Assembly: GCA_946699065.1 (NCBI GenBank)
Contig: CAMPDV010001751.1
Span: 1 to 64,000, forward strand
Length of the DNA stretch: 64,000 nucleotides
DNA from: Loxodes magnus
Lineage: Eukaryota; Ciliophora; Karyorelictea; Loxodida; Loxodidae
Direction of reading: 5' to 3'
Below, one piece after another: positions 24,390-63,327 of the stretch. Numbering within the stretch: position 1 is the stretch's first letter; every line of letters begins with the position of its first letter. A program made the position numbers and the translations under genes. The notes beneath the pieces are model-generated. The model saw nothing but the letters and a program-made list of their open reading frames with translations, was not told the origin of the DNA and did not search any database.

Positions 24390-25770
24390 AATCACCAAAG
24401 AAGCAGAAATATCAAATTCCAAAAATAATGAAAAGGAAACAAGTCTCTAACGAATTCCGAAGAAGTATAAAGAAGTTAAGTAGAATATAATTACTTTGAG
24501 AATATACTAGAGAGTATAAAGGAAAGCTAAGAGGAAATAAGAGCTACTCCAATATAGACTGCCAAAGAAGAGAATAACAGTGAGGAAATCAAGCAGCTGT
24601 CTTAAATTACATTCAATAAACTAGGCTTTCAGAGCTAATTACATAGGAAAGCAGAAAATAACATCAGCCGCTTAGGTTCAGAGTGAAATCTACATCATTA
24701 ATTTCCATCTTTTACTTCTGATACCAGTTTCAGGTCTTTTCTTATTCCATAAATAACAAAAATGTCTCCTATCAAATACAACAAATTAAATCTAAGCAAA
24801 GTATTTTGTTCAAAATTAGAAGAAGATAATAAAAGAAAAAATAATCCAGGAATATACAATATGAGGCAGTTAAATTTTGCTCAGAACAATGAAGTAGAGA
24901 AAGAAAAACCAGCTGATAAATAAGTTATATAAGCTGATTCTAAATCCTTCAGCAATTTTACAGGGAGAAAAATCTCACTAAATAACTACTGCCTAGGGAA
25001 ATTAATTGGACGTGGTGCTTATGCGTCTCTGATTTATGGAAAAAACAAGTACAGTGAACAAAAAGTGGCTATAAAAGTATATGAAAAGTTTAAGCTTATG
25101 GATACACATATAATGAAATCAGTAAATGAGAAATTTTAGTACTACAAAAGCTAAGGTATCCTAACATAGCGAAGCTATAAGAGGTAGTTAGTTAAAATAA
25201 GCAAATAATCTGGTAACTAAATATATGGATGGACCTGAATTGTATACATTTCTCAAAAAAAAACTAAACGCAGATTCCAGAAGAAACCGCAAAAATGATA
25301 ATTAAATAGCTACTATAAGCTCTGGATTATTGCTATGATTTAAACATTGCGCATAGAGATATTAAACTAGGAAATTTTCTGCTTTAGAACAATAAATCGG
25401 ATTATTAGTTAGGCGTCAAGCTTATTAACTTTGGCTTTTCAACAAAAATTCCACCTGGTTAGAAGGTAGAAATGTTTTGATGCCCTTTTAGTTATATGTC
25501 ACCTTAAGTAATTGGTGATAAAGAGCATAGCGGCTTACAAGAATATATTTGAGCGATTAGAGTACTTATTTTTGTCACCTTTAATGGATTTTATCCTTTC
25601 AGAGGAAAAACGGCAAAGAGCTTTACAGTTAGATTATCAAAGGTGATTTTACATTAGGAGAATAATTGATCGAAATTTCAAAGGCTATTATAAATAGAAT
25701 GCTTGTATTAAACTCTAGAGAACGACCGAATGTCAAGAAAATACTAAAAAATCCTTGATTAACTTCAGCA
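24390..25770 (+). pseudogene. Ser/Thr protein kinase pseudogene (CAMK/AMPK-like)
   Basis: An acidic N-terminal region (SEEVQRSQVEYNYFENILE) runs in frame into ATG 24762 and the kinase domain. The nucleotide loop GKLIGRGAYAS, the ATP-binding lysine in QKVAIKVYEK, the catalytic loop HRDIKLGNFLL, the activation segment (INFGFS, with Asn replacing Asp of the usual DFG), SYMSPQV and NGFYPF are all readable, and the domain ends near RERPNVKKILKNP. At least four single-base frame changes occur, near 25130, 25210, 25260 and 25630. With DFG lost, the gene is very probably dead. TGA stands at two positions where this family has a nearly invariant Trp: the I-W-A after the APE-like motif and the N-P-W near the end. 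A third TGA, next to the altered GTP site, is not clearly Trp. The order of motifs makes the family certain; the subfamily is a guess from spacing. Confidence 0.88.
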
Positions 25771-37919: not shown

Positions 37920-38190
37920 TACCTAATTTTTAAGATTTTTCCTCGTTTACGAATAGACAAAGTAGATTTTTTAATATTTTGCTACCTTTTTTGTACTAGA
38001 TTTATATTAGTCAGGAAAGCTTTAATTTGCATAATAATTTTGCAGATGCTTTAGAGTATATAATGCAGTAAGAGCAAGGTAGATAAGGATTTTGTGTTGC
38101 TTGGTAGGAAAGTTGGCCTCAAAAGATGTAAAGGTTTAGATCTATAATAAAAGGAATAAATAATCTAAAAGTGAAGTTGGTTTAGTTGCA

Positions 38191-38421
38191 TTAATCTGGC
38201 ATTGTATGGCAATTGAGGTACATAATAGTTGAAATTTTATAATAATAGTGGTTATAAGGTAAGTCTGATTGATTAAATAATGTAATTAGATACTTAAAGG
38301 ATTTTTTGGGATAGGAGTATAAGATGATTAGAGTGAAGATGATTGATATGAATTGATAATATTGATGTAAAATAACTGTACTTGTTACTAAGTATCTTAT
38401 ATATAAATATGGTTTTAGCAT
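38191..38421 (-). CDS. 76-codon ORF in left arm, unknown
   Basis: The ORF starts MLKPYLYIRYLVTSTVILHQ, holds a hydrophobic centre (FISIIFTLIILYSY) and has no TAA, TAG or TGA before its end TAA, which is unusual in this A+T-rich DNA. It is repeated in the right arm at 62826-63056 with one change (Met to Ile near the end). It could encode a small single-pass membrane protein or be a chance open stretch. No family recognised. Confidence 0.3.
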   Translation of the reverse strand: MLKPYLYIRYLVTSTVILHQYYQFISIIFTLIILYSYPKKSFKYLITLFNQSDLPYNHYYYKISTIMYLNCHTMPD

Positions 38422-39261
38422 TTGAACTAAAGATTGACTAAGATTAAACTATTGTTAAATACTTTAAGATATAGCATGATAGTGATTATGAGCTGATTTT
38501 AAATGAATGATTAGCATTTAGTTTAGATTAAAATACATAGAAGTAAGATTTATTAAGCACTTGAAGAATAATAGGATTAAATAGCTTTAAATGACTTATC
38601 ATTATACTTTAGTATTAGTTTATATAGTTAACCTAAATGATTCACTTATTAGTTCCTAATTAAATATAATCTATCTAATATTAAATTAACCAAGATATAT
38701 GTAACCCACTTAACTCTATTAATAATAAAGGCATCATTTACATTTAAAGATTAAAAGCTAATTTTAATAATTAAGTCAAACTAATTAAGTTAGATTAGAT
38801 AATTTTATCTATAATTTAGTAACTTAATTATAGTAATTTATAATAGTTAATATAATTAAGTTTTGATAAAACTTAACTAATAAATCATTATATTCATAAT
38901 CAGTATAATCATAGATCAGTATAAAACTACAAACCCCAATTTAAAAATCAAACTCTATATAGTCAAAACTTAAGATAAATATAAACTTAGTTTTAAATAA
39001 CAATAGTAACTAGATTAGATTTATACTTTTATACTAAATAAGTACAACCTAACCAACCTATATATTTTAACCAATCATAATCAATTATATCAACTTAAAT
39101 CATAACTAAACTAAATACCATTCAGATTACTTTATATTAGTCAAGATATCCTAACAACCATCTTTAGATTACTATTCAAATACATCCAAATATTACTATT
39201 TATTTAATTTACTCTAAAATTGCTTCTAAAGATACGAAAGATTAATCTTATAGAAATAATT

Positions 39262-40957
39262 TATATTAAATCCAGTTTTAATTGTTTGCACACTTCTTCA
39301 GCTTCTGCTAATCTTCAACTCTCATCCTTAAAACTTTAATTAGTCTTTGTTTTATTAACCCTTTCAGTCCATTCTTCTTTTAAAGATACTCTTGTATTAT
39401 TGGATTTTAGTTAATTTAATCACTTCTTAAAGTTTTCTTCAACTAAATGTGTTTATTAATTATCGCTAAAGGATACTTATTTATCGTTGAAGATATCTTA
39501 ATCTAGTTCCAATTTTTTAAGTCACGAGGTAATTTCTAGTTATCGATAATTTTTTTAATTTAAATCTTTATTTCTTAATTTCATTGTCTTGGTTAACGCC
39601 TTTTTATTTCTTACTTACTCAGATCTCCTTAATATCTACTAATATAAGCTTGACTATAACTTATGCTTTTATATATTAAATCACTGTTGTCTTCAGCTTC
39701 AATATTACTTCTGCTTTAGAAATCCTTTTTTTAGGCGAACTTCGTTTAAATTGAAATTTTCCAATCGTTATATTTCCCTAAGCTATGCATCTTTCATCCT
39801 CGTAAACTTGGATTGGAACATTTTATTAATATCTCAGCTCTGTAATCAAACCTTTAATCCCAGTTGGAGTTACTATAATTTTAGGAGTAACTACTTCAAA
39901 TAATCCTGATGCTGCCTTTACTCCAAGGCAGGGGTTAAATCTCCACTAGGGATTTAATTATCTCTGGAATATTATTAATTAATGTAGTACCCAATTAGCA
40001 GCTCTATGTACTATTACTTCTTCTGATTTGTACTTTTAAATATCTCTTTCCACTTAAAAATAGCTAAACTTACTACTGAATTCTAGGAATCTTTGCAGTT
40101 TCTCCTACTTGAAATACCTCAATTCTTTATTGCTAAATCGTAGCTCCTTATTGAAGCTGGTCTATAATGTCTATAATACTTGGAAAAGCCCAGAGTTAAA
40201 TTCCTTGAAACAAGCTCTGTAATTTAGTTGCATAATTAATTTCTAAGAATAAGCTATTATTTTAAATATCAGCACCTAACTAATTCGCTAATTTTCTTTT
40301 GTACTTTAATCTAATTTTAATCTTCTCTACTTTTTAATTATTTCGACTGTTTAAACAGGTTTTTCTTAAAAAGCTGTTGAAGAATTCCTATATTCCTGCA
40401 ACAAAAATCTTATTCTCCTATATGGATTTACAACTATTGCCTTTATTCGAAAACTTCATCATCTGATAGCAAAAGCTGGATCTAAAATTTCTTCTTCTAA
40501 GCTATATATAAATGTAATTTTTTGCTTTAAATCTTTTTTCATATCCCGATGAATACTCTACTGCTGTTTATTTTTTAATTACTCTTTTTGCTTCTAATCC
40601 TGCGTTAACTCCTGCTTAGTTAAGGTATTATCTTTATAGATTCTTGAAGTAACTAAGATTAGTAATAACTGCGTGCTTAGTAAATAGTCCTAAATGGCTT
40701 TCTGCATCTTTCTTCACTGTTGCTAAAATAAAGGAAATATCTATTCTTGGATAAATTATCTACTTCTCATCTCTAAAATTGACTATCTACTTGGTTTAAT
40801 CTCTTTTACCAGATACCAGCTTAAAAGAGGCTATATGATTTTTCTTAAGCAGCAGTTTCTTAAAAGTTTCTACCTATTGACAACTTCTGAACGAAAATCA
40901 TACTATTAGGGTTTCTAAAAATTAGACATAAATCTTAATCTACTTTAACCTATCTTA
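39262..40957 (-). pseudogene. Hsp70 pseudogene, left copy
   Basis: This is the mirror image of the right-arm copy at 60290-61985; see that entry for motifs. Hsp70 chaperones bind unfolded peptides with an N-terminal ATPase and a C-terminal peptide-binding domain. The left copy shows the same blocks on the minus strand, including the Gln-Arg-Gln motif with TAA codons at about 40629-40637 and the same frame changes where I compared them, so both copies descend from one already decayed gene. The left-most bases hold the C-terminal helical part. Confidence 0.8.
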
Positions 40958-42209
40958 CAGAGATAAGGCAACATAAGAAGATATAGTTGTATTCTCTTAA
41001 ATTTTAGCTTATATTGAGCAGCTTAGTAGGTGTAAGTAATTTCTAGCCTAAATCTAAATGATTTAACTAGGTTCTTAAATAATGTAAAATTTGAATGATC
41101 TAGCAAAGATAATTAGTCTATTATTCTAGTAGCCCGTTCTGATTATAAGACTAGTTGATTTAATTGTGTAAGTAATGTTTATTAATAAGGTAGAATTTAG
41201 TTAGACATAATAGTTTATATTTAGTAGAAATGTAGTGAAGATGATAAAGTTATGAAATATGTAAATACTTAGGTACATAATGACTATTGATTACTTGCTT
41301 GCACTTTATGATTATTAAATTGATTAATATGAATATTTCTTAATTTATAACTAAATAGACATAAAATGTTCTAACTATTTTTGAATGTCTTGATAAGCAC
41401 TAAGTATCCCTAATAATTAGTCTATTTATTAATAGAAATAGCTAAGAGTTAATTTGAATGGTTGTAATAATCTTCTCTAATGTATTTAGTGTAGAGTATT
41501 AAATTTAAGGTATACTATTATACTATTATAATATAAGCTTATAATAACTAAAGTTAAATTAATTAATAAGATTATTATTTTTAAATATCTAGAGTACTTA
41601 AATTCTATTTATTATTAATAGTCTTTATTTCTCTATATTTTACTATATTAGTATAAAGAGTTTAGAGTTATATTGTACTAATCTATATTTAATTAAATCA
41701 ATAGCTTTGCTTCTTATTAATTAAAGATAATTCATTATATTTAGTAGATATTAAACAAAGTTAAATATAGAACTACCAAATTACTTTATTTTCTATTCAA
41801 TGTCAAACTCATACTCTCTCTAATTCTTAGATTATACCTCAACTTACTATAACCATTACTTTAAGACTCATACCTAATATTACTTCCATCCAATATTCAA
41901 ACAATACAATCTTAACCAATATTCAAAACTTACTAACATACATCCAAATATTATACATATCACACTCTTTTTACTCAATTTAAGTCTACAATCAAATAAC
42001 AACAATGCTTTACTTCTATAAACGCTAACTTAATTGAGAAAAAAACCTTTATTCCTATTAATTTACAACAAGATTGCACCAAAATCAAAAACAGAGCTAA
42101 AAGAAAACAACTTTAAAATAAACTTTCAAGATAAGTAATTAAAGCTAGAGTAATTAAGATTAGAGAAATCTCTTATTACTACAAACTAAACTTTTAAAAT
42201 CTAAAAGAT

Positions 42210-42575
42210 TCATTCATCTAAAGAAATGCTAGAAATTTACTTTTTTCTCTTCTGTAAATTAGAGAACTTTACGCCGCTTATTTTCCTTTCGCCACTTATC
42301 CCTCCAAGAATTTTGACTGCTATATTTCCAAGCAGATGCTAAAAAGCATAAAGGCTATTTAAAAGGTTGCCAATTTTATTATTTTAAATAGCTGAGAATA
42401 CTCCTAGTAAAGCTTCAAAATACGACTAGATTATTTCTTTGAATTTCGCTTTTCTCTCATTCTTAATGATCTTGCTTATTTTTCAAAGTTTGTGCTGTTA
42501 GTTACTTTTAAATTATTTTATATTTTCCTTGGAGCTTTTCTTTAAATCTTTTATTATTGTTCAAAGTTTTGACAT
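42210..42575 (-). CDS. 121-codon ORF, left copy
   Basis: This is the mirror of 58672-59037 (coordinate sum 101247), with ATG at 42575 and TGA at 42212-42210. See the right-arm entry for the protein description. Confidence 0.38.
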
Positions 42576-45330
42576 ATCAAAAGGGGGTGAAGAGATTCAG
42601 ATGTTGTAACGATAGCATATTTTTAACTTAAGAAATTTAATTAATCATTTATAAATCTTTCCTATTTGATTAAATCTTTTATTGCCACTAAATATACTTA
42701 AGTTCTTAAAATAAATTGGGGTAATTCTATAAACTTGAGTCCATCCATTTATAAGGTGAACAAAAAACAGTTTCATTCGATTCTAACTCCATGAATTGTC
42801 TCTAGAGAGAACTATAAGCAAAAATAGTAAAACTAGGAGGCACATAAAATCTCAATGCTGAGACTGTATAAATATAATTAAATCCAGGCTTCGCTTATTT
42901 GTTCTGCTATACTGTAAAAAATTCCACTTCTTGAAATATTTATTAATAATTAGCTTACTTGGCTTTCTAGATCTCCCTTTCTTATTTTTTGACGTTCTAG
43001 ACTTTTTGCTCAAATTAATGCATTTTTCTATTAAGTCTAAAGCTATTATTTCTTGTTAATTTAAGCTTCTAAATTAATTTGGCAATTTTAATATTTTGTT
43101 CTGTTTACCGCTAATTTTTATTTTACTATTAAATCTTAATCTGCTCCTCCTTTTAATATTCTACTTCTGATTTAGTTGTCACATTAAATTGATTTTGTTC
43201 TAAGTTTTAATTTGCTTTTATTTAAAAATCTTTTATTAACAGGCTTTATTTCTACTCTATTAACTATGCTTTTATCTCTTTTTTATCCAGTTAAAATATT
43301 AATCAGAGTATGTCTTAGATAATCCAGATTAAAGACATAATCGAAAAACTAGCGAATTCTTAATATAAGGACTGTAATTCTTCCACTCGAAGATTTAAGC
43401 TTAAAAGTAATCCTATAAACGTAGAATATAAGAAATCTCTTGCAACTCTAATTTATACATCATTTAGTTTAAAATCTCACAAAGGTTTCTATACTTGATT
43501 TAGCGTAATTAGTAAGAAAAGTTTGAGCTATTCATTAATTATTCTCTATTAGTCAAGGCTTGATTATAATATTTTGATATGCTCATTTTCTATTAACTTC
43601 GAATTAAGACTTTAGTTATAAGACAAGATCTATAAAAACTCTTAGATAGTCTCAAGCAGCTTTAGAGAATCTTTTAAGAATATGTGGCATTTTTTGATTT
43701 ATCATTAGAAGGCTGTTGCTTAAATTCAGGCTATTATGATAAACCAGAATTATATTGTTCAGTCTATAATTTAATTCAAGTTTCTGGCTTTAAAGAATCA
43801 AGATGTTTTATAAGAACTATTGATTAAGCAGCTAAATTTGTTACTTACTGAGCAAGCTTTTCTAAAATATCCCTTTGTTCCTTCAAAATCTTAAGCTTAA
43901 GGGAGGTTATTTTCTACATATTCATATGAGATATTCTTTTACTCCTACTAACTTGGATTTATTGACTTCTGAGTCTCCTTGTGGCCTTAAATTTTACGAG
44001 TAACTAATGGTTTAAAAGTTTTCACCTTCTTGTAATAAATCCTATATTTCTATAAATTATTTAAACTACCAATAAAGCAGATTTTCTATATTTTTTTAAT
44101 AAAAATAATTTATTTTTTCTACAACTTTTGCAAAATTTGTGCAATAATTTCATTTTATCCTTGTGAATTTATTTAAAAAAAATTAACTGAAACCTGTTTA
44201 GACTTTCTAGCAATTCATACTAGAAAGCTTTCACTTTTCTTTAACTAGATTTATTATCTACTTATGATTTTTTGAGTATGTTTCAGATATAATTTCGATA
44301 GATATGATCCCAAATTTTATTGAATTATTTATAATCTAGTCAATTATCGGTTTAAACTTTTCTTGCATTTCTCAAGGATTAGCAAGTAGAGTTTTAAGAT
44401 CCAACTTAGATAAATTTTAATAAATGTTCGCTTAATTTTTTTACGCTCTAAATAAGTTTCTCGTAAGTTTGGATTTCATCAAAGTGACAGGTTATTTTAT
44501 ATTTTTCCAATAAGAAGCTTCTTTTTATGTTAGATAAATATCCCAGATATTTCTATAGTTTGATTTTGTAATTTTAGTATTTTACTCTTAATATTTAGTC
44601 TGTGACTATTTTAAAATTGCAAATGTTTCTAAATAATCTTACTATCTTATTTATTTATTTATTTATTTATTTAATTTATCAATCCTGCAACCACCAACTA
44701 AGTTCTTTAGTCTATTTTCTAAAATCTTAAGAATATACTCAATTACTCACTAGCTTCACTTAAATTTTACTTTTTTACTATTTTTATATTTTTAAGCGCT
44801 AAAAATGATTAGTCTCTTCTTCTTAAAAAATCTTAAGAGTTAATGAAAATTATAGATGTATTTCAATGTTAGCTAAGACTGACTCAGACTTAAGTCACTA
44901 TACTAGTTCTACTCTACTTAATATTTTCCAGCCTAATTAATTATTACCTATATTTTAGTTACTAACTGAAAGAAAGGAAATCAGAACGAATTATTTCACA
45001 CTTTTCTTTAATTGAAGGAATTTTTCCTTTTTGCTTGGAGATATTAGATAACTACAATATCGACTAAGTAGAAACAGAAACTTTGAAGAATAACTCCTTG
45101 GTTTTCCGGATCTATTATAGTTATAATTCTTTTACTTAGGCTAAACTCCCTAATGTTTTTTAGAGTAGAAATATAAAATACACTTCAGAATAAAAAGTCT
45201 TCTAAGCTTTTAGTTTTTTAAATAATAAACTAATCTATAATTTCTTCCTTTGATAGTCTAAATATTAGCTAAGTCTTTATCATATTTCTATAAAGGAGTT
45301 TATCTTCAGCTTTAGCTTTTATAGCATCTA
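42576..45330 (-). pseudogene. long coiled-coil gene relic, left copy
   Basis: Mirror of the right-arm relic at 55930-58671. The internal ATG equivalent to 57094 lies at 44153, which fits the sum 101247. The TTTA microsatellite at about 44647-44672 lies within its upstream part and has six units here against three in the right arm, which by itself would not change the reading frame. Confidence 0.5.
44647..44672. repeat. TTTA microsatellite, expanded in left arm
   Basis: Six TTTA units here against three at the mirrored place in the right arm (near 56599-56613). It accounts for 12 of the roughly 25 bp length difference between arms. Confidence 0.85.
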
Positions 45331-46787
45331 TTTTATTAATTTTTTAAATGTAAAATAGCAAATCTCAAAGAGGTACTCAACCAAGATATTTAAGAATGTT
45401 ATAATTAAATAGGAATTAGAAATGTAGGAATAATAATGGCTATTCTTATTTTTATCTTCCTTGCAGTTGTTAGCTAAAGTAGTTGGGTTTTTTAAGTTTC
45501 ATATTGTTTATATGCGAAATACATAATTAATGATCTCTTAACTTATTGATTGTATTAATAATATTCCCTTTGTTATTTAGAGTTATTTTGTACTGATACT
45601 TATTAATAAAGAATGTATGGTAAATAATTAAATCTAAGTCTCTTGGTTTATTCTAAGGGTATAGCATAATATTATATATTTGTTTAGTATCTTTCTAGTA
45701 TCTTAGATTTAAACTAGAAGTAGTTAATTAATTGGATTTAATGTAAAAGTAGGTAGTAGTAAGAGTATGGTTATATTTAATAGTAATATTGGTATTAAAT
45801 ATTGGTAATATTAATTTAAATAATAGATATTTACTTAGTTTATTAGTTTCTATTTAGCATACTATTAGTTATTTACTCTTAGTATCTATTATATTAAGCT
45901 TATATTTTAGTATTCTTTAGATTTATTATCTAACTAATTTACTAGAATGCATTACCATTATTAAAAACTAAATTTACTACTTCTATTATCATAACAGAAT
46001 TAGGTCCAAGTAAAGTAGTAGGTTTCCTTATAAAGGCATTACTTTAATTCAATTAATTCTAAATCCTTTCAATAGTTCTCTTAATTCAAGAATCAATTGC
46101 TAAAATACCTTACAAGAACAACCTTTTTATTCATTCGATATTTGTAATTATAACTCTCTTTATTGCTTTCTATTTTAACTTAATTCAAGAATAAATATCT
46201 TATAATATACTAAGCGTACTAAGTCATATATTCTGTATAGAATTATTAGAGATATGCATATATAGTAAATTTAATAAAAGAGAGAAATTAGAAAAGTAAT
46301 AGACTACTAAATAGAAACTTTTAGTTAAATAGTAGGTTAATTGCCAATTAAGATGCAGTCAATTCTAATTAATTTAGAAAGTATTATAAAATTAATAATC
46401 ACGAAATATTTTAATTTATCCTAAAGATAAAGATAATTAAACTAATAATAGAGAGCTTCAATAGCTAAAGGATTATATTAATATTTTATTAAGGTTATAA
46501 TAATTAAATATATCAGAAAGCTGTTTTATAAGATAGCTTTATTTTAAACCATTAGACTTAATTGAACCTATTATTTGCTTAGCATTAATAATCTTAAGAT
46601 AATTAAGAAAAATAGTTATTAGCTATATAAAATAATAATCCAATATTATATAATCTATTAGGGTTAATTATCTTTATTATTAAGTTAATATGCAGGCTTT
46701 CAATTATTAATTTGAAAATAATTAATTGAATATATGTTTAGTTAACTATTTATATTTCTTTATATTTTAAAGGAAATATAAATAAAT
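45331..46787. other. inner part of left arm without gene
   Basis: A+T-rich repeat-poor sequence mirrored at 54485-55930. No recognisable feature. Confidence 0.4.
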
Positions 46788-47104
46788 AACCAACTTTGAT
46801 TAATTCAATACTTTGGTTTACTAGAGCTATTTTATTTAAAGGTATCTTTATCTTTATTTTTGAAATAAAAAGACAACTATAGAAATATTTAAGGATTTTT
46901 TCAAAGAAAGTAAATTATATACTATTAGGAAGACTTCAAAAGTATAAAAATTTTGATTTAAATAATTAGCATAAGGAAAAAAAGAATCCATAAAAAGTAA
47001 ATATAAATAATGAAATCTCTAAAATTGTTTGTTAATTAAATAAGAAAATAATAAAAATATATTAAATTTAGATAATTAATTTAATTGATGTTATAATATT
47101 TTCT
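46788..47104. other. unique spacer between MORN gene and left arm
   Basis: Presumed 3' flank of the giant gene. The gene frame stays free of TGA through it and into the left arm as far as 46458, but the translated sequence becomes a low-complexity hydrophobic stretch, unlike the gene. Confidence 0.5.
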
Positions 47105-50100
47105 ATATTAGTTTATCATTTGTCCACAATTCTTCACAGATTTCTCCATTTTTAGTTTTAAATTTTCCTAATCCATGCTTTTTATCTTCTACCCAACTAC
47201 CCTCATAGTTATCTCCATTTATGAAGATAATACTTCCTTTTCCTTGTCTTTTTCCTTCATAGATATCTCCATTTATAAATATATATTTTCCTTATCCATG
47301 CTTTAAGTCTTATAGCCAATCACCCTCATAACAACCAAAATTTACGTAATTTTAAATTCCTTTTCCTTGTCTTTTTCCTTCATAGATATCTCCATTTATA
47401 AATATATATTTTCCTTATCCATGCTTTAAGTCTTATAGCCAATCACCCTCATAACAACCAAAATTTACGTAATTTTAAATTCCTTTTCCTTGTCTTTTTC
47501 CTTCATAGAATTATCCTTCATAGATATCTCCATTTTTAGATTTACATTTTCCTTATCCATGTATTTTTCCTTACAATCAATCGCCCTCATAACTATCTCC
47601 ATTTATTTAATAAGCAATTATATTTTAAGCACCCATTTTATTTACGAATAACCCTACTATTATTTGATCATTTAGGTTTAATGAAATACCATTTTAAAAA
47701 TTGCATCTCTAGTCCTTTTATTCTATTTAATAATCTGTTTTTAAATACTATTATTACATTTAGTATAATTACGCTTCATTTCTTTCACCTAGTTTATTTA
47801 AAATTAGTTACTTGTTCTATGCTTAAAATTTCTGATTTATTTGTGACCTTGAAAAGTATATTATCAAATGCTGTAATTTTAAAACTTTCTATTTTATTTC
47901 CTTTTTTAAGATTTATTTAGTAAGTTCATATAACTAAACTACTTCTTTTAAGCTTTTAGACATCTAATTTTATTAAAATTTTGTATCAATTTCATGTTAT
48001 AAATTTTAGAATAGTTCTATTATTTTAATCATTAGCATTTAATTTACATTTCTAGTATTTAAGCTAATTTTTTATTTTTATTTTGTTATATAAAATTATC
48101 ATAGATCTATTTATAGTCTTTCTTTTTCAATTACTTGGAATGATTGCTTTAATGTTTAAAACATTCACTAAAATAGCTCTTCTTACATAAAAGATAAATA
48201 GCTTTGTAGTTCTTATTAACTTAAATCATGCTCTATATTTTGTATGTTTTTCAGTTTCTTATACTGAAAAGATCATTTTACAAACTTTTTATCTCATTTC
48301 CTTGTATTTTAAAATTCTACTGGATCATTTATTATTTTTTTATTTAAAAGTATATTAAAGCAGTGCTTAGTTCTTATTATTTTTTAGTCTTCTAAATCTA
48401 TTAAAATGCCTTTTCCCTATATTAAACCATTTATAAAAAATCCTTAGAATATTTTGTTTTCTTACCTATTAAAGATTTTTCCATAACCATGTGGTTTTTT
48501 TTGTGAATCTATCTCTCCTTCATAGATTTCTTATTAATTAATATTAATTAAGCAAAGTCTATTTTTTTCTATAGCTACCTTTGTATTCATTATTTCAGTA
48601 AATCTTTCTATTAGTTTCTTTATCCTTAAATCATTAATTTATAGTAATGGAAAGTATATGTTAGTATCTATAATTGAGATATCTAGTTTGTAGTTTAGAT
48701 TTAGTATTAGTTATTAGTATATTTTTTTATCATACTCGTAATGAGCTCTCTCTATAGTTTTGTTCTCTAGGTTAATGAGAATTCCATTTCCATTTTTAAA
48801 TCCATTTCTAAATTCTCCTTCATAATACATTTCTTCATATAAAAGTCTTCCCATTCCCTCAGGAAATAATTAGGAGTTAACTTATCCAATGTAAACTTTT
48901 GATTGATAGACAACTTAACTAGAAATGAAGTATTTAGTATATTGTTATGCATAAAGCTTTTACTACTATAGGTAAATCAAATAAAAGGATTAAGAATAAT
49001 TAGATTCTATTTCATCTAGTTTAAGATAAGGAATTTTCTCTAATTTTTATAAAATTTGTAAAACATTTAGTAATTTATGAGATAATTTCATTGTTTAAGA
49101 AGACTTTGAAGAATTTAAATTATTATTTTGCTATTTTTTAAAGTCACATGTTTGAATATCATAAATTTTAGAATTTACATATTCAGAAAATAATTGTGAA
49201 TTTGAAATTTCGAATATAATCGGAGAAGAACTAGCTCTAGATTCGATTTATATTTAATTGCTTTATTTACTTTGATTTTGTATTTACGGGCTTTAACATA
49301 AATATTCCTATTTTATATTAAATTTTGTATAATCTATTTATTCATTGCTATAAGCTAACTATAATTATTTAAAATCATATCTTATTTCTTCATCATACTA
49401 AAGCATCAAAAATAGAATTCATTACAAGCGTTCTTTTTTTTATTTTGGATAATATTAATCTATTAACTATCCTATCAAATTACATAATTCATAATTATCT
49501 CTTTTTACTTCATTCAGTTTAAGATGATCTTGGCTTCTAAGAGTTATAACTTCAAGTAAAGTAATTCCTAATGAAAATGCATCTGACTTATATAAATTTC
49601 TATCTTTATAGAATATTTAAGGAGATTGGTAGCCTTAAGTATAGATAGTTGAAGTAGACTGTTGAATCTAACTTTAAGGATCTGAGTAATCAAAATCTCC
49701 TATTTTTAAATTTCCTTGCTAGTCAATGAAGATGTTATGAGGCTTGATATCTTAATGGGAAATTTCTAAATTTTAAAGAAAAGCAAATGCATCTATAAGA
49801 AATAGAGTGATTCTATTAATTCAGTCAAACTCAAAGTTTGATTAATTTCTATTATTGCTCAGTTGATATAAGGATCCTTGCTCACAATATTACATTTCTA
49901 TCCAATACTAATTCTTTTGAGAGATATCATAGCTATAAATTCGAACACAGTACTATTAGTATGTTTCATTAGAATTTCATAGTTTTTTGATGATTTACTC
50001 AATTCTCCGATGATTTCTAGCTGATTTAATAAACTTTATAATTCTAACTTCCTATTATCAGTTTAATACTTTTATGATGCAAACTTTATCTGTTTCATAT

Positions 50101-52868
50101 ACTTTTTCTTTTAAACTATATCCAGGGAATTTATGCTAGAATGTTCATAGTGTGTCTTATTCACTATACTGATTAAAATAAACTTCTATAATCTCATTTT
50201 ATGAGAACTAAGAAAATCTATATTCATATTAACGAAACTATACTAAAATTGTACTTCAGTTATATTCTTTTTGCTCTAAAATATTAAAAATAATATAAAG
50301 ATCATTTTGTCCTAAAAAGTAAGGAGATATAATATTTCTATTCAGTTAATCTAAAGAAATTCAGTATAATATCTACTGATTATCTATAAAAAATAGATCC
50401 CTAATGTTATTATAGGTATCTCTTAACTTTTGCTCTACAATAGAATAAAATTCTTCCATTTGGTTATTTTGTAATAAGTGTATATATTTTTAATTTTGAT
50501 CTTTTAGATTATAGAAATCATTAATAGCATTTATTATTTATGAAAACTCTTCTATTTCTTAAAAGAAAATTAGATAAACTAGATGTATTAAGTCAAACCT
50601 AGTAAGTTTACTTATAAACTCTTACTTCTCATTTTCTTCTTCTAAATGTTCTCTACAGAGTCCAATCATTTCTTTATTAACTATTTTTCTAAAACTATAT
50701 CAGTTATTATTCTATTCAACTCTTTCAAAAATCAAAATATTATTATGCTCTTATGACTAAAATAAGAGTGAAATAGTAAAATACATTATTAAGTTTGCTT
50801 TATTTAACTCTTTATTCTAATTCATTTCTAGCAAATTTAATTTAGATAACTAATCAACTTTTCTTTTTTCAATTCTCTAATTAGCAAATATATAGATTTC
50901 ATTTATCCACTATATCTACTTTCTATCATATTTCTATCAATTATTTTAATAGATTTAACTTATTTATTAGTATATAATTAAATACTCTTATGCAAATCTA
51001 CATTTTTCCTTTTCCTATTTATCTTCACCTTATACTTCTTCTATCTTCTCTTATATCATTTTATAAATTACTTCAAACCAATTTTCTTTTCTACCATTTT
51101 AATAGGTCAAAAGACTTTCTTTAACTAACTATTCTATATCTTATTTTATTTATTCTATTATGCTTTACTTCTATTTGAACTATTGGCTTTGATATAGGAT
51201 TCAATCTTCTTAATTATCACATTTACTCATTTATTTCATTTCAATTCAATTGCTCATCATTTAGCTCTCTTGCTATAAACTTTCATTTTTTAGTTCTTGA
51301 GTTAAATATTTTTTCCTTTAGCATAGTTTTTCTTCTCAGAACTCTAAATAGTCTATTTCACTAATTTGATTTAAGTCACATATATTTTAATATTTAAGTT
51401 ACCTTTCTTTATCATATAAACTTAGTTAACTAGTATCATTTTTAATTTCTATTCTTTCTATATTTCTAATATCCTATCTATTCTCTAATTCCTCTAAACT
51501 ATTCGTTAGAGTAAATCTTTAAGTTTTTTAGTTGTCATATCTGAAAAACTTAGTCATGTAAAATCCTCAAAATTGCATTTTTATTTTTATTGTTTTCTTA
51601 TCGAATAGATAGAAACAGCCTAACATATCTTCCTATTATATTGATAGTTATTCATTCAAATATTGCTTTAGTTAGTCTTTTTTGTATTCTTCTATCATAT
51701 TAATAACTATATATTTATCCTATGAGTATTTATATTAGTTTTTGGGAAATAAATTTAGTATTTCCTCAAGACTTTGTGACAATGAACCCTATAAAGCAAA
51801 TGCCTACAAAATTTAAAAGAGAGGGAAGTCACGTTCTAAAACTGAAATTAAATGCTAAGATAGACTCGATGATTTCAATATTTGATCTAGTTTATCAATT
51901 AAAAGTTAAATATCAATTTTAGTATATTCAGTTTAGTCTTAATTTTAACTATTTTCTATGAAAATTTAGATATTCTAAGTGCTATTATCGAATATTTATT
52001 GCTTATCATTAATGTTCAGCTCTACTTTTTATAACTCTTCATATAGATAATACTATCAATCCTGACATCTATATATATTTTTAAGAATTTCATAGGTTGA
52101 ATATTGTCTTTCTATTCTATAAAATTGCGATTCTATTTGCTTTTTATTTTCTAAATAAAAAGCATTTAGTTTTCCATTACAACCCATTAAATTTATCTTC
52201 ACTATTGCCAGATCCCCTTCCCAAATGTTTACTCTTTCCAGGTTTAAAAACTTAAAATTATAATTTTTTAGATATTTTCTATTTCCTAGCTTTAATAGTT
52301 TCTACTTTTATTCATCAAAGTTATAAAGTTCTAAATGGTTTTGAGTGAAGGAAATGAAATATATTAAATGCTAATTTCCAAAAGTAAAAATATGTTTTCT
52401 CTTTTCTTTTGTTTAGATTCATTTATTAATTTATTCTTTAATTACTTTTAGTTACTTTATTCCTTCATTTTAGATAGATAAAACTATTTCTTCTGATTTA
52501 ATTGGATCGTCATATGAAGTCTTTCATTATTCTAGAATTTTAGACACTTTTATTTATAAAATGTCTTTAATTACTAAAGCATATAACACTTTCATGGATC
52601 CATAATTTTATTCCAAGTATTTAAGTAATTTAAATTATAAGTTTGAGTTTTAAATTTACACTCACTTTTCTATTAGTTTTGATTCTTATATCATTACAAA
52701 ATCCATTTTAGAATTACTAGATAAACTCTGTCCCTTAGCTTAGTAAGATACAAAAAATTTTTCTTTCAAAATAATTGATTGTTTTTAAGAGTCAATCAAT
52801 ATTTTATCTTCACACTTTATTTCTTTTGCATTTTAGACATTTTAATTAGTATTTTTTATCTTAATCAT
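47105..52868 (-). CDS. giant coiled-coil / protein kinase / MORN-repeat protein
   Basis: From ATG 52868 one frame stays continuous for about 1,921 codons when TAA/TAG=Gln and TGA=Trp; codon phase was checked at five sites down to 47195. Residues 1 to about 900 are helical and coiled-coil (NYGSMKVLYALVIKDILQIK, LCREHLEEENEKQEF). A kinase domain follows at about 915-1170: lysine K933 in VCIIKVLN, hinge MQYCEQGSLYQL, catalytic loop HQDIKPHNIF (D1040, K1042, N1045; Gln replaces Arg of HRD), DFD at 1058-1060 instead of DFG, and YKSDAFSLGITLLEV. One MORN-like unit lies near 1335 and a MORN array at about 1755-1915 (YEGDWLQ, HGQGKY). MORN repeats bind membranes or scaffold proteins. About 22 TGA and 8 TGG codons encode Trp. 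Catalysis may be weak or altered given HQD and DFD. The end is unsure: TAG 47105 or TAA 47093 just after the MORN array fits best, since no TGA follows for about 215 codons. Confidence 0.9.
47205..47610 (-). repeat. MORN repeat array with 123-bp tandem duplication
   Basis: Within the giant gene, units carrying YEGDW or YEGSW occur with the Trp at codons 1764, 1810, 1851 and 1892. The Trp codon is TGA in the first (47579-47577) and TGG in the others (47441-47439, 47318-47316, 47195-47193). The second and third units are a near-exact 123-bp tandem duplication, equal to 41 residues, so it keeps frame. The array matches the usual MORN pattern of YxGxW followed by HGxG. Confidence 0.9.
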
Positions 52869-54484: not shown

Positions 54485-54485
54485 A

Positions 54486-55929
54486 TTTATTTATATTTCC
54501 TTTAAAATATAAAGAAATATAAATAGTTAACTAAACATATATTCAATTAATTATTTTCAAATTAATAATTGAAAGCCTGCATATTAACTTAATAATAAAG
54601 ATAATTAACCCTAATAGATTATATAATATTGGATTATTATTTTATATAGCTAATAACTATTTTTCTTAATTATCTTAAGATTATTAATGCTAAGCAAATA
54701 ATAGGTTCAATTAAGTCTAATGCTTTAAAATAAAGCTATCTTATAAAACAGCTTTCTGATATATTTAATTATTATAACCTTAATAAAATATTAATATAAT
54801 CCTTTAGCTATTGAAGCTCTCTATTATTAGTTTAATTATCTTTATCTTTAGGATAAATTAAAATATTTCGTGATTATTAATTTTATAATACTTTCTAAAT
54901 TAATAAGAATTGACTGCATCTTAATTGGCAATTAACCTACTATTTAATTAAAAGTTTCTATTTAGTAGTCTATTACTTTTCTAATTTCTCTCTTTTATTA
55001 AATTTACTATATATGCATATCTCTAATAATTCTATACAGAATATATGACTTAGTACGCTTAGTATATTATAAGATATTTATTCTTGAATTAAGTTAAAAT
55101 AGAAAGCAATAAAGAGAGTTATAATTACAAAGTATCGAATGAATAAAAAGGTTGTTCTTGTAAGGTATTTTAGCAATTGATTCTTGAATTAAGAGAACTA
55201 TTGAAAGGATTTAGAATTAATTGAATTAAAGTAATGCCTTTATAAGGAAACCTACTACTTTACTTGGACCTAATTCTGTTATGATAATAGAAGTAGTAAA
55301 TTTAGTTTTTAATAATGGTAATGCATTCTAGTAAATTAGTTAGATAATAAATCTAAAGAATACTAAAATATAAGCTTAATATAATAGATACTAAGAGTAA
55401 ATAACTAATAGTATGCTAAATAGAAACTAATAAACTAAGTAAATATCTATTATTTAAATTAATATTACCAATATTTAATACCAATATTACTATTAAATAT
55501 AACCATACTCTTACTACTACCTACTTTTACATTAAATCCAATTAATTAACTACTTCTAGTTTAAATCTAAGATACTAGAAAGATACTAAACAAATATATA
55601 ATATTATGCTATACCCTTAGAATAAACCAAGAGACTTAGATTTAATTATTTACCATACATTCTTTATTAATAAGTATCAGTACAAAATAACTCTAAATAA
55701 CAAAGGGAATATTATTAATACAATCAATAAGTTAAGAGATCATTAATTATGTATTTCGCATATAAACAATATGAAACTTAAAAAACCCAACTACTTTAGC
55801 TAACAACTGCAAGGAAGATAAAAATAAGAATAGCCATTATTATTCCTACATTTCTAATTCCTATTTAATTATAACATTCTTAAATATCTTGGTTGAGTAC
55901 CTCTTTGAGATTTGCTATTTTACATTTAA
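54486..55929. other. inner part of right arm without gene
   Basis: Mirror of 45331-46787. A+T-rich; nothing recognised. Confidence 0.4.
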
Positions 55930-58671
55930 AAAATTAATAAAATAGATGCTATAAAAGCTAAAGCTGAAGATAAACTCCTTTATAGAAATATGATAAAGAC
56001 TTAGCTAATATTTAGACTATCAAAGGAAGAAATTATAGATTAGTTTATTATTTAAAAAACTAAAAGCTTAGAAGACTTTTTATTCTGAAGTGTATTTTAT
56101 ATTTCTACTCTAAAAAACATTAGGGAGTTTAGCCTAAGTAAAAGAGCTATAGATATAATAAATCCAGAAAACCAAGGAGTTATTCTTCAAAGTTTCTGCT
56201 TCTATTTAGTCGATATTGTAGTTATCTAATATCTCCAAACAAAAAGGAAAAATTCCTTCAATTAAAGAAAAGTGTGAAATAATTCGTTCTGATTTCCTTT
56301 CTTTCAGTTAGTAACTAAAATATAGGTAATAATTAATTAGGCTGGAAAATATTAAGTAGAGTAGAACTAGTATAGTGACTTAAGTCTGAGTCAGTCTTAG
56401 CTAACATTGAAATACATCTATAATTTTCATTAACTCTTAAGATTTTTTAAGAAGAAGAGACTAATCATTTTTAGCGCTTAAAAATATAAAAATAGTAAAA
56501 AAGTAAAATTTAAGTGAAGCTAGTGAGTAATTGAGTATATTCTTAAGATTTTAGAAAATAGACTAAAGAACTTAGTTGGTGGTTGCAGGATTGATAAATT
56601 AAATAAATAAATAAGATAGTAAGATTATTTAGAAACATTTGCAATTTTAAAATAGTCACAGACTAAATATTAAGAGTAAAATACTAAAATTACAAAATCA
56701 AACTATAGAAATATCTGGGATATTTATCTAACATAAAAAGAAGCTTCTTATTGGAAAAATATAAAATAACCTGTCACTTTGATGAAATCCAAACTTACGA
56801 GAAACTTATTTAGAGCGTAAAAAAATTAAGCGAAAATTTATTAAAATTTATCTAAGTTGGATCTAAAAACTCTACTTGCTAATCCTTGAGGAATGCAAGA
56901 AAAGTTTAAACCGATAATTGACTAGATTATAAATAATTCAATAAAATTTGGGATCATATCTATCGAAATTATATCTGAAACATACTCAAAAAATCATAAG
57001 CAGTTAAGAAAAGTGAAAGCTTTCTAGTATGATTTGCTAGAAAATCTAAACAGGTTTCAGTTAATTTTTTTTAAATAAATTCACAAGGATAAAATGGAAT
57101 TATTGCACAAATTTTGCAAAAGTTGTAGAAAAAATAGACTATTTTTATTAAAAAAATATAGAAAATCTGCTTTATTGGTAGTTTAAATAATTTATAGAAA
57201 TATAGGATTTATTACAAGAAGGTGATAACTTTTAAACCATTAACTACTCATAAAATTGAAGGCCACAAGGAGACTCAGAAGTCAATAAATCCAAGTTAGT
57301 AGGAGTAAAAGAATATCTCATATGAATATGTAGAAAATAACCTCCCTTAAGCTTAAGATTTTGAAGGAACAAAGGGATATTTTAGAAAAGCTTGCTCAGT
57401 AAGTAACAAATTTAGCTGCTTAATCAATAGTTCTTATCAAGCAACTTGATTCTTTAAAGCCAGAAACTTTAATTAAATTATAGACTGAACAATATAGTTC
57501 TGGTTTATCATAATAGCATGAATCTAAGCAACAGCCTTCTAATGATAAATCAAAAAATGCCACATATTCTTAAAAGATTCTCTAAAGCTGCTTGAGACTA
57601 TCTAAGAGTTTTTATAGATCTTGTCTTATAACTAAAGTCTTAATTCGAAGTTAATAGAAAATGAGCATATCAAAATATTATAATCAAGCCTTGACTAATA
57701 GAGAATAATTAATGAATAGCTCAAACTTTTCTTACTAATTACGCTAAATCAAGTATAAAAACTTTTGTGAGATTTTAAACTAAATGATGTATAAATTAGA
57801 GTTGCAAGAGATTTCTTATATTCTACGTTTATAGGATTACTTTTAAGCTTAAATCTTCGAGTGGAAGAATTACAGTCCTTATATTAAGAATTCGCTAGTT
57901 TTTCGATTATGTCTTTAATCTGGATTATCTAAGACATACTCTGATTAATATTTTAACTGGATAAAAAAGAGATAAAAGCATAGTTAATAGAGTAGAAATA
58001 AAGCCTGTTAATAAAAGATTTTTAAATAAAAGCAAATTAAAACTTAGAACAAAATCAATTTAATGTGACAACTAAATCAGAAGTAGAATATTAAAAGGAG
58101 GAGCAGATTAAGATTTAATAGTAAAATAAAAATTAGCGGTAAACAGAACAAAATATTAAAATTGCCAAATTAATTTAGAAGCTTAAATTAACAAGAAATA
58201 ATAGCTTTAGACTTAATAGAAAAATGCATTAATTTGAGCAAAAAGTCTAGAACGTCAAAAAATAAGAAAGGGAGATCTAGAAAGCCAAGTAAGCTAATTA
58301 TTAATAAATATTTCAAGAAGTGGAATTTTTTACAGTATAGCAGAACAAATAAGCGAAGCCTGGATTTAATTATATTTATACAGTCTCAGCATTGAGATTT
58401 TATGTGCCTCCTAGTTTTACTATTTTTGCTTATAGTTCTCTCTAGAGACAATTCATGGAGTTAGAATCGAATGAAACTGTTTTTTGTTCACCTTATAAAT
58501 GGATGGACTCAAGCTTATAGAATTACCCCAATTTATTTTAAGAACTTAAGTATATTTAGTGGCAATAAAAGATTTAATCAAATAGGAAAGATTTATAAAT
58601 GATTAATTAAATTTCTTAAGTTAAGAATATGCTATCGTTACAACATCTGAATCTCTTCACCCCCTTTTGAT
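55930..58671 (+). pseudogene. long coiled-coil gene relic with possible crystallin-like end, right copy
   Basis: Several consecutive frames give continuous protein-like text under the altered code: KAKAEDKLLYRNMIKTQLIF, KTKELFFKVSASIQSIL, SIKEKCEIIRSDFLSFSQQL, KITCHFDEIQTYEKLIQSVK, then from about 57320 KILKEQRDILEKLAQQVTNL and YQLRQIKYKNFCEILNQMMY, then after another frame change near 57985 EIQKAKQANYQQIFQEVEF. The end (VSALRFYVPPSFTIFAYSS ... KWMDSS) resembles a beta/gamma-crystallin-like unit. At least four frame changes mark it as decayed. The first half recalls the coiled-coil proteins with cysteine/histidine clusters common in ciliates. Function unknown; the crystallin suggestion is weak. 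Confidence 0.5.
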
Positions 58672-59037
58672 ATGTCAAAACTTTGAACAATAATAAAAGA
58701 TTTAAAGAAAAGCTCCAAGGAAAATATAAAATAATTTAAAAGTAACTAACAGCACAAACTTTGAAAAATAAGCAAGATCATTAAGAATGAGAGAAAAGCG
58801 AAATTCAAAGAAATAATCTAGTTGTATTTTGAAGCTTTACTAGGAGTATTCTCAGCTATTTAAAATAATAAAATTGGCAACCTTTTAAATAGCCTTTATG
58901 CTTTTTAGCATCTGCTTGGAAATATAGCAGTCAAAATTCTTGGAGGGATAAGTGGCGAAAGGAAAATAAGCGGCGTAAAGTTCTCTAATTTACAGAAGAG
59001 AAAAAAGTAAATTTCTAGCATTTCTTTAGATGAATGA
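58672..59037 (+). CDS. 121-codon ORF, right copy
   Basis: ATG 58672 to TGA 59035-59037 gives 121 codons in one frame. The protein begins MSKL, then TGA (Trp), TIIKDLKKSSKENIKQF, has a second in-frame TGA at codon 31, a hydrophobic helix region EIIQLYFEALLGVFSAIQ, then NLLNSLYAFQHLLGNIAVKI and a basic tail ISGERKISGVKFSNLQKRKK, ending LDE before TGA. The higher G+C of its 3' half suggests real coding. It overlaps the end of the upstream relic. If real, it uses TGA both as Trp and as stop, which fits a context-dependent code. No family recognised. The left arm has an equal copy at 42210-42575. Confidence 0.42.
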
Positions 59038-60289
59038 ATCTTTTAGATTTTAAAAGTTTAGTTTGTAGTAATAAGAGATTTCTCTAATCTTAATTACTCT
59101 AGCTTTAATTACTTATCTTGAAAGTTTATTTTAAAGTTGTTTTCTTTTAGCTCTGTTTTTGATTTTGGTGCAATCTTGTTGTAAATTAATAGGAATAAAG
59201 GTTTTTTTCTCAATTAAGTTAGCGTTTATAGAAGTAAAGCATTGTTGTTATTTGATTGTAGACTTAAATTGAGTAAAAAGAGTGTGATATGTATAATATT
59301 TGGATGTATGTTAGTAAGTTTTGAATATTGGTTAAGATTGTATTGTTTGAATATTGGATGGAAGTAATATTAGGTATGAGTCTTAAAGTAATGGTTATAG
59401 TAAGTTGAGGTATAATCTAAGAATTAGAGAGAGTATGAGTTTGACATTGAATAGAAAATAAAGTAATTTGGTAGTTCTATATTTAACTTTGTTTAATATC
59501 TACTAAATATAATGAATTATCTTTAATTAATAAGAAGCAAAGCTATTGATTTAATTAAATATAGATTAGTACAATATAACTCTAAACTCTTTATACTAAT
59601 ATAGTAAAATATAGAGAAATAAAGACTATTAATAATAAATAGAATTTAAGTACTCTAGATATTTAAAAATAATAATCTTATTAATTAATTTAACTTTAGT
59701 TATTATAAGCTTATATTATAATAGTATAATAGTATACCTTAAATTTAATACTCTACACTAAATACATTAGAGAAGATTATTACAACCATTCAAATTAACT
59801 CTTAGCTATTTCTATTAATAAATAGACTAATTATTAGGGATACTTAGTGCTTATCAAGACATTCAAAAATAGTTAGAACATTTTATGTCTATTTAGTTAT
59901 AAATTAAGAAATATTCATATTAATCAATTTAATAATCATAAAGTGCAAGCAAGTAATCAATAGTCATTATGTACCTAAGTATTTACATATTTCATAACTT
60001 TATCATCTTCACTACATTTCTACTAAATATAAACTATTATGTCTAACTAAATTCTACCTTATTAATAAACATTACTTACACAATTAAATCAACTAGTCTT
60101 ATAATCAGAACGGGCTACTAGAATAATAGACTAATTATCTTTGCTAGATCATTCAAGTTTTACATTATTTAAGAACCTAGTTAAATCATTTAGATTTAGG
60201 CTAGAAAATACTTACACCTACTAAGCTGCTCAATATAAGCTAAAATTTAAGAGAATACAACTATATCTTCTTATGTTGCCTTATCTCTG
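59038..60289. other. arm segment without assigned gene
   Basis: About 1.25 kb between the 121-codon ORF and the Hsp70 relic, mirrored at 40958-42209. Frames are open because stops are scarce, but none reads like a known protein. Confidence 0.4.
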
Positions 60290-61985
60290 TAAGATAGATT
60301 AAAGTAGATTAAGATTTATGTCTAATTTTTAGAAACCCTAATAGTATGATTTTCGTTCAGAAGTTGTCAATAGGTAGAAACTTTTAAGAAACTGCTGCTT
60401 AAGAAAAATCATATAGCCTCTTTTAAGCTGGTATCTGGTAAAAGAGATTAAACCAAGTAGATAGTCAATTTTAGAGATGAGAAGTAGATAATTTATCCAA
60501 GAATAGATATTTCCTTTATTTTAGCAACAGTGAAGAAAGATGCAGAAAGCCATTTAGGACTATTTACTAAGCACGCAGTTATTACTAATCTTAGTTACTT
60601 CAAGAATCTATAAAGATAATACCTTAACTAAGCAGGAGTTAACGCAGGATTAGAAGCAAAAAGAGTAATTAAAAAATAAACAGCAGTAGAGTATTCATCG
60701 GGATATGAAAAAAGATTTAAAGCAAAAAATTACATTTATATATAGCTTAGAAGAAGAAATTTTAGATCCAGCTTTTGCTATCAGATGATGAAGTTTTCGA
60801 ATAAAGGCAATAGTTGTAAATCCATATAGGAGAATAAGATTTTTGTTGCAGGAATATAGGAATTCTTCAACAGCTTTTTAAGAAAAACCTGTTTAAACAG
60901 TCGAAATAATTAAAAAGTAGAGAAGATTAAAATTAGATTAAAGTACAAAAGAAAATTAGCGAATTAGTTAGGTGCTGATATTTAAAATAATAGCTTATTC
61001 TTAGAAATTAATTATGCAACTAAATTACAGAGCTTGTTTCAAGGAATTTAACTCTGGGCTTTTCCAAGTATTATAGACATTATAGACCAGCTTCAATAAG
61101 GAGCTACGATTTAGCAATAAAGAATTGAGGTATTTCAAGTAGGAGAAACTGCAAAGATTCCTAGAATTCAGTAGTAAGTTTAGCTATTTTTAAGTGGAAA
61201 GAGATATTTAAAAGTACAAATCAGAAGAAGTAATAGTACATAGAGCTGCTAATTGGGTACTACATTAATTAATAATATTCCAGAGATAATTAAATCCCTA
61301 GTGGAGATTTAACCCCTGCCTTGGAGTAAAGGCAGCATCAGGATTATTTGAAGTAGTTACTCCTAAAATTATAGTAACTCCAACTGGGATTAAAGGTTTG
61401 ATTACAGAGCTGAGATATTAATAAAATGTTCCAATCCAAGTTTACGAGGATGAAAGATGCATAGCTTAGGGAAATATAACGATTGGAAAATTTCAATTTA
61501 AACGAAGTTCGCCTAAAATAAGGATTTCTAAAGCAGAAGTAATATTGAAGCTGAAGACAACAGCGATTTAATATATAAAAGCATAAGTTATAGTCAAGCT
61601 TATATTAGTAGATATTAAGGAGATCTGAGTAAGTAAGAAATAAAAAGGCGTTAACCAAGACAATGAAATTAAGAAATAAAGATTTAAATTAAAAAAATTA
61701 TCGATAACTAGAAATTACCTCGTGACTTAAAAAATTGGAACTAGATTAAGATATCTTCAACGATAAATAAGTATCCTTTAGCGATAATTAATAAACACAT
61801 TTAGTTGAAGAAAACTTTAAGAAGTGATTAAATTAACTAAAATCCAATAATACAAGAGTATCTTTAAAAGAAGAATGGACTGAAAGGGTTAATAAAACAA
61901 AGACTAATTAAAGTTTTAAGGATGAGAGTTGAAGATTAGCAGAAGCTGAAGAAGTGTGCAAACAATTAAAACTGGATTTAATATA
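60290..61985 (+). pseudogene. Hsp70 pseudogene, right copy
   Basis: Blocks of an Hsp70/DnaK chaperone occur in order: NPNSMIFVQKLSIGRNF; ILATVKKDAESHLGLFTKHA; VITNLSYFKNLQRQYLNQAG with TAA at both Gln (60611, 60617); VNAGLEAKRVI; RACFKEFNSGLF; VGETAKIPRIQ (normally VGGSTRIP); KSEEVIVHRAA; VVTPKIIVTPTGIKGLITEL; VPIQVYEDERCIAQGNITIG; and a helical C-terminus (HLVEENFKKWLNQLKSNNTR, SWRLAEAEEVCKQLKLDL, Trp as TGA). The N-terminal phosphate-binding loop was not found. At least six frame changes separate the blocks, so it cannot make a full protein. The family is certain; the compartment of the ancestor (cytosolic or mitochondrial) cannot be told. The left arm has a mirrored copy at 39262-40957. 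Confidence 0.9.
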
Positions 61986-62825
61986 AATTATTTCTATAAG
62001 ATTAATCTTTCGTATCTTTAGAAGTAATTTTAGAGTAAATTAAATAAATAGTAATATTTGGATGTATTTGAATAGTAATCTAAAGATGGTTGTTAGGATA
62101 TCTTGACTAATATAAAGTAATCTGAATGGTATTTAGTTTAGTTATGATTTAAGTTGATATAATTGATTATGATTGGTTAAAATATATAGGTTGGTTAGGT
62201 TGTACTTATTTAGTATAAAAGTATAAATCTAATCTAGTTACTATTGTTATTTAAAACTAAGTTTATATTTATCTTAAGTTTTGACTATATAGAGTTTGAT
62301 TTTTAAATTGGGGTTTGTAGTTTTATACTGATCTATGATTATACTGATTATGAATATAATGATTTATTAGTTAAGTTTTATCAAAACTTAATTATATTAA
62401 CTATTATAAATTACTATAATTAAGTTACTAAATTATAGATAAAATTATCTAATCTAACTTAATTAGTTTGACTTAATTATTAAAATTAGCTTTTAATCTT
62501 TAAATGTAAATGATGCCTTTATTATTAATAGAGTTAAGTGGGTTACATATATCTTGGTTAATTTAATATTAGATAGATTATATTTAATTAGGAACTAATA
62601 AGTGAATCATTTAGGTTAACTATATAAACTAATACTAAAGTATAATGATAAGTCATTTAAAGCTATTTAATCCTATTATTCTTCAAGTGCTTAATAAATC
62701 TTACTTCTATGTATTTTAATCTAAACTAAATGCTAATCATTCATTTAAAATCAGCTCATAATCACTATCATGCTATATCTTAAAGTATTTAACAATAGTT
62801 TAATCTTAGTCAATCTTTAGTTCAA
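61986..62825. other. outer arm segment without gene
   Basis: Mirrored at 38422-39261. A+T-rich; no feature recognised. Confidence 0.4.
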
Positions 62826-63056
62826 ATGCTAAAACCATATTTATATATAAGATACTTAGTAACAAGTACAGTTATTTTACATCAATATTATCAATTCATA
62901 TCAATCATCTTCACTCTAATCATCTTATACTCCTATCCCAAAAAATCCTTTAAGTATCTAATTACATTATTTAATCAATCAGACTTACCTTATAACCACT
63001 ATTATTATAAAATTTCAACTATTATATACCTCAATTGCCATACAATGCCAGATTAA
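62826..63056 (+). CDS. 76-codon ORF in right arm, unknown
   Basis: Right-arm copy of the ORF at 38191-38421, with Ile where the left copy has Met near the end. Hydrophobic centre, no recognised family. Preservation of the frame in both arms may only reflect how recent the duplication is. Confidence 0.3.
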   Translation: MLKPYLYIRYLVTSTVILHQYYQFISIIFTLIILYSYPKKSFKYLITLFNQSDLPYNHYYYKISTIIYLNCHTMPD

Positions 63057-63327
63057 TGCAACTAAACCAACTTCACTTTTAGATTATTTATTCCTTTTAT
63101 TATAGATCTAAACCTTTACATCTTTTGAGGCCAACTTTCCTACCAAGCAACACAAAATCCTTATCTACCTTGCTCTTACTGCATTATATACTCCAAAGCA
63201 TCTGCAAAATTATTATGTAAATTAAAGCTTTCCTGACTAATATAAATCTAGTACAAAAAAGGTAGCAAAAGATTAAAAAATCTACTTTGTCTATTCTTAA
63301 ACGAGGAAAAATCTTAAAAATTAGGTA

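Follow-up and report, generated by a model that had tools for sequence, protein, structure and literature searches.

The stretch of DNA analyzed here (the window) comprises the first 64,000 nucleotides of contig CAMPDV010001751.1 (97,697 bases) of the karyorelict ciliate Loxodes magnus, and it harbors a kinase-MORN gene on the minus strand at 47106..52868. The open frame of this gene starts from the ATG at 52868 and proceeds through 1,921 codons with zero frameshifts and with three-base periodicity. It contains 22 TGA codons (read as Trp) along with 8 TGG, and 175 TAA/TAG codons (128 TAA and 47 TAG, read as Gln) along with 46 CAA and 8 CAG. A preliminary description of the window had already given a frame of about 1,921 codons with about 22 TGA and no frameshift; our counts agree with it, but the strand, which is the minus one, had been left out. 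The plus strand of 47105-52868 was considered as the coding strand as well and was rejected, as it was read and found to be non-coding. With the standard code the window contains not one closed stop-to-stop frame of 150 amino acids, and the codon-usage map of the window shows merely short frame-switching pieces beside the kinase-MORN gene.

The encoded protein possesses a protein kinase domain at residues 937-1169 (49362..50060, minus strand; Pfam PF00069, E-value 2.2e-24) and C-terminal MORN repeats at residues 1758-1908 (47145..47597, minus strand; Pfam PF02493, E-value 4e-34), the latter being also aligned with MORN proteins of solved structure. Codon 1764 (47577..47579, minus strand) is a TGA located at the position of the MORN Trp, within YEGD-TGA-LQGKIHGQGK. 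In the sister repeats, as pointed out in the preliminary description, codons 1810, 1851 and 1892 are TGG. Trp occupies the codon-1764 position in the MORN proteins of solved structure, and one more TGG is found at codon 1915. The TGA share of TGA plus TGG in the gene is 73%, and the share of A in the other purine-ending codon pairs is 73-85%. The number of TGA codons (22) is lower than that expected from independent codon positions (33.6).

The meaning of these codons was examined in the whole assembly (705,730,643 bases, 7,843 contigs). Protein kinases (68 of 136 matches listed) were aligned with all three stop codons masked, and no pair of the rows kept shared 80% of codons. Three columns hold 8 TGG or more, and in them lie 49 of the 66 TGA codons vs 2 of the 489 TAA/TAG codons. 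In well-covered columns, to which the scoring was limited (48 TGA codons, with 18 left aside), the enrichment of Trp amounts to 6.33 bits at TGA and to 6.47 bits at TGG. For TAA (2.11 bits) and TAG (2.32 bits) the strongest enrichment is that of Gln, as it is for CAA (2.66 bits) and CAG (2.13 bits). Table 6, where UGA is a stop only, does not describe these genes: in-frame TGA occupies Trp positions in the kinases. Two relics in the window show the same codons. The kinase relic on the plus strand (25124..25762; Pkinase, E-value 6.4e-31) has TGA at the Trp of what we take to be subdomain IX (EYI-TGA-AIRVLIF); its remaining TGAs lie outside the sites recognizable as conserved Trp, and the earlier claim of several such sites was too strong. 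The N-terminal piece of an Hsp70 relic on the minus strand (40052..40840; HSP70, E-value 6.3e-16) has TAA at both Gln of the QRQ motif, just as had been claimed. The reading of UGA as Trp and of UAA/UAG as Gln is supported in the window gene as well as in other genes of the genome.

The kinase-MORN gene belongs to a family. The protein search listed 38 matches: the window copy, 23 other long copies and 14 short MORN pieces. Among the 23 other long copies 21 span at least 1,800 query residues, and the other two span 1,478 and 1,187; each of the 24 long matches contains 17-31 in-frame TGA codons. Five copies (the window gene, C723, C380, C209 (148 kb) and C216) were aligned by codons over the first 1,750 codons. 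In the three diverged copies (window, C209 and C216; both directions) the 136 TGA cells face 96 TGA, 12 TGG, 11 TAA and 17 other codons, and the 20 TGG cells face 12 TGA, 6 TGG and 2 others, which makes TGA the main exchange partner of TGG. This exchange is in agreement with Trp as the meaning of UGA. One could suppose that UGA encodes another residue, as some of the 136 TGA cells face Tyr (4) or Phe (4). The chance of this is practically negligible: at the kinase TGA sites Trp stands at 6.33 bits vs 1.02 bits for the next residue, Phe, and its enrichment is of the same order of size as at TGG. Neither do we consider it credible that the frame is a pseudogene whose in-frame stops are plain stops, a view to which the broken kinase and Hsp70 relics in the same window lend some color. 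It is opposed by the 1,921 codons without a frameshift, by the 23 other long copies with 21 of them spanning at least 1,800 query residues, by the commonness of in-frame TGA among kinases of this genome, and by the ratio of nonsynonymous to synonymous substitution rates (dN/dS). Calculated with table 27, this ratio ranges over 0.32-0.51 for the ten pairings of the five aligned copies (with few changes in the window/C723/C380 pairs).

UGA is found at the ends of genes too. From 68 Hsp70 matches 30 loci were read, 25 of them of the cytosolic type; one of these 25 is a lone gene and the others belong to two arrays, with near-identical sequences in many cases. The motif EEVD is directly followed by TGA in 23 of the 25, and in the remaining two (L078 and L095) the frame shifts just ahead of the EEVD end. 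Another locus of the Hsp70 family (L103), presumably BiP-like, terminates as HEDL-TGA. It was also observed that Hsp70 genes and their fragments lie in near-identical tandem arrays on G000:C45, G000:C86 and G000:C854. For histones 15 ends were fetched, 8 of which fell short of the C-terminus; canonical H3 shows RGERT-TGA in all 4 ends (4/4), and three divergent H3-like ends are without TGA at the canonical stop place. Both eRF1 genes (L072 and L073) have TGA at the expected C-terminus. The TGA ends of Hsp70, eRF1 and H3 mean that UGA carries both meanings, Trp and stop, and the use of UGA as a stop at gene ends favors table 27 over table 28. The preliminary description had named both tables, and the combination of sense codons fits; the terminal role of UGA, which speaks for table 27, had escaped it. 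In table 28, the code of the Condylostoma type, each of the three codons is sense internally and a possible stop terminally. Only the kinase-MORN family gives this alternative some ground, as among its nine readable ends without a nearby UGA seven have UAG at one position and two have UAA four codons further on. Nevertheless, table 28 is improbable: TGA closes those conserved genes whose ends allowed a judgment (Hsp70, canonical H3 and eRF1), and L. magnus has been published with UGA as the sole stop (PMC11441545). Almost certainly, the window is karyorelict nuclear DNA that uses NCBI table 27, with UAA/UAG as Gln and UGA as Trp internally and stop terminally.

The decoding machinery was searched for as well. 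A stricter pattern for the transfer RNA (tRNA) of Trp gave no matches, and a looser one gave 128 matches vs 5 in the control. The 3' side of the anticodon stem reads TCGAC in all of the matches listed except two, and the TCGAC matches are located on C67 and C148. In the four TCGAC array copies that were fetched, the pair 27-43 is A.C or U.C, resulting in a four-pair anticodon stem, and ARAGORN calls these short-stem copies tRNA-Trp(CCA). Of the two matches lacking TCGAC, that on C110 has five pairs in the stem and was called tRNA-Trp(CCA), and that on C12 received no tRNA call. The preliminary description had proposed to look for a tRNA-Trp reading UGA or for an altered eRF1. No tRNA-Trp with the UCA anticodon was found by the one pattern used, its 1 match (control 5) not being called a tRNA. 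In the alignment with the human protein, eRF1 has Ala at the place of Ser70, and the motifs TASNIKS and YLCDNKF are replaced by RAQNIKS and FLCENTF, respectively; all these changes are common to L072 and L073. These two close genes lie ~35 kb apart on G000:C196. The top PF03463 match, L071, was set aside as an eRF1 candidate, as it resembles Pelota/Dom34. Among the matches of the UUA-anticodon pattern, G000:C1668:14664-14693 and G000:C7439:1264-1293 look most tRNA-like by eye and are candidates for a UAA-reading tRNA-Gln.

A short-stem tRNA-Trp has been stated for Loxodes in PMC13092985. Based on published work, such tRNA-Trp(CCA) would read UGA as a near-cognate codon, outcompeting eRF1, and near the poly(A) tail of the messenger RNA (mRNA) termination would win over UGA read-through. 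A short-stem tRNA-Trp(CCA) belongs to the Blastocrithidia system as well (PMC12153298, PMC13092985), and in Blastocrithidia the Ser70Gly replacement in eRF1 accompanies UGA read-through (PMC12153298). The eRF1 is altered at human Ser70 both there (PMC12153298, PMC13092985) and here, the replacement being Gly in Blastocrithidia and Ala in Loxodes. The codes themselves differ: UAA/UAG (UAR) encodes Gln here vs Glu in Blastocrithidia, and the terminator is UGA here vs UAA there. Swart et al. (2016) described no single eRF1 change explaining the ciliate codes (PMC4967479).

Several observations weigh against table 27 as the full account of these genes. Opposite the 136 paralogue TGA cells, TAA stands 11 times and another non-Trp codon 17 times. 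Besides the large short-stem arrays, one solitary tRNA-Trp(CCA) gene (L109, G000:C110:470069-470156) has the full anticodon stem of five pairs. The pattern for tRNA-Gln reading UAA/UAG gave 21 matches vs 58 in the control. Finally, in the kinase-MORN family the end has no in-frame UGA nearby in 9 of the 12 copies where it was readable, among them the window gene.

In the window gene TAG (codon 1922; 47103..47105, minus strand) comes directly past the last MORN-like residues (LWTNDKLI), and the first in-frame TGA downstream is codon 2137 (46458..46460, minus strand), 215 codons past this TAG. The 3'-untranslated regions of L. magnus are short, with a median of 41 bases (PMC11441545). The ends were sought in 14 copies, of which 12 were readable and two (C80 and C527) were not reached. 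The next in-frame UGA lies 225-759 bases beyond the anchor codon in the window gene, C723, C380, C323, C298 (238 kb) and C673; no in-frame UGA occurs within the 41, 21 and 15 codons read of C3499, C209 (232 kb) and C1179, respectively. The two ends with UAA mentioned above are those of C298 (238 kb) and C209 (232 kb), which have AAG at the TAG position shared by the other seven. A plausible UGA end is found in C209 (148 kb), and the ends of C216 and C2556 are ambiguous. In C673 and C1179 a one-base length difference is seen by eye immediately past the TAG, which suggests that coding is probably not continued there. No single GT-AG intron of 15-35 bases restoring an early in-frame UGA was found by script in the six copies tested; the seventh copy, C3499, was read by eye. 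The ends without a nearby UGA may reflect UAG termination, another route of ending or decay of the ends. It is possible, though rather doubtful, that proteins of the kinase-MORN family end at UAG (UAA in one subgroup) and not at UGA. No report on the missing terminal UGA in this family was found in the literature covered, which excludes supplements and most subscription papers, and the words "kinase" and "MORN" are absent from the main text of PMC11441545.

Several copies of the kinase-MORN gene per contig are present on G000:C298 (107850, 173040 and 237915), G000:C209 and G000:C673. The three copies on C298 are on the same strand and are spaced by ~65 kb, which suggests a large repeated unit. 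The gene in the window lies in the 7.7 kb spacer of an inverted repeat, the arms of which (37920-46787 and 54485-63327) are ~8.9 kb long and 98-100% complementary in four pieces. At positions 1-14000 of the window the guanine-cytosine content is 11-13%, about half of that in the remaining window, with an abrupt shift near 14-16 kb.

The code reading obtained here is correct but already published. The account given in the preliminary description was right as a reading; the prior publications for Loxodes (PMC11441545) and for Parduczia, another karyorelict (PMC4967479), went unmentioned in it. Karyorelicts including Loxodes are assigned to table 27 in PMC11441545, with UGA as the sole stop and also as Trp, and L. 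magnus itself is described there, like here, with UAR as Gln and UGA as Trp and stop. Reading UAA/UAG as Gln and UGA as Trp is shared by Parduczia sp. and Condylostoma magnum, and the transcript end decides the stop meaning in them, likewise in the reading proposed here; in contrast to the published code of Loxodes, UAA and UAG are stops in Condylostoma as well (PMC4967479). UGA makes up 0.120% of codons in Parduczia (PMC4967479) vs 22 of 1,921 in the window gene. The genomic DNA alone confirms table 27 for the present assembly, and gene calls made here under the standard or Tetrahymena code err.

The kinase-MORN family differs from the published picture with UGA as the sole stop (PMC11441545), being mostly without a nearby terminal UGA. 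If its proteins did end at UAG or UAA, the karyorelict release factor would still terminate at UAR at the very 3' end, and for some genes a hidden capacity resembling table 28 would persist in Loxodes. The end of the kinase-MORN family is in this way a test of the strictness of the published UGA-only rule.
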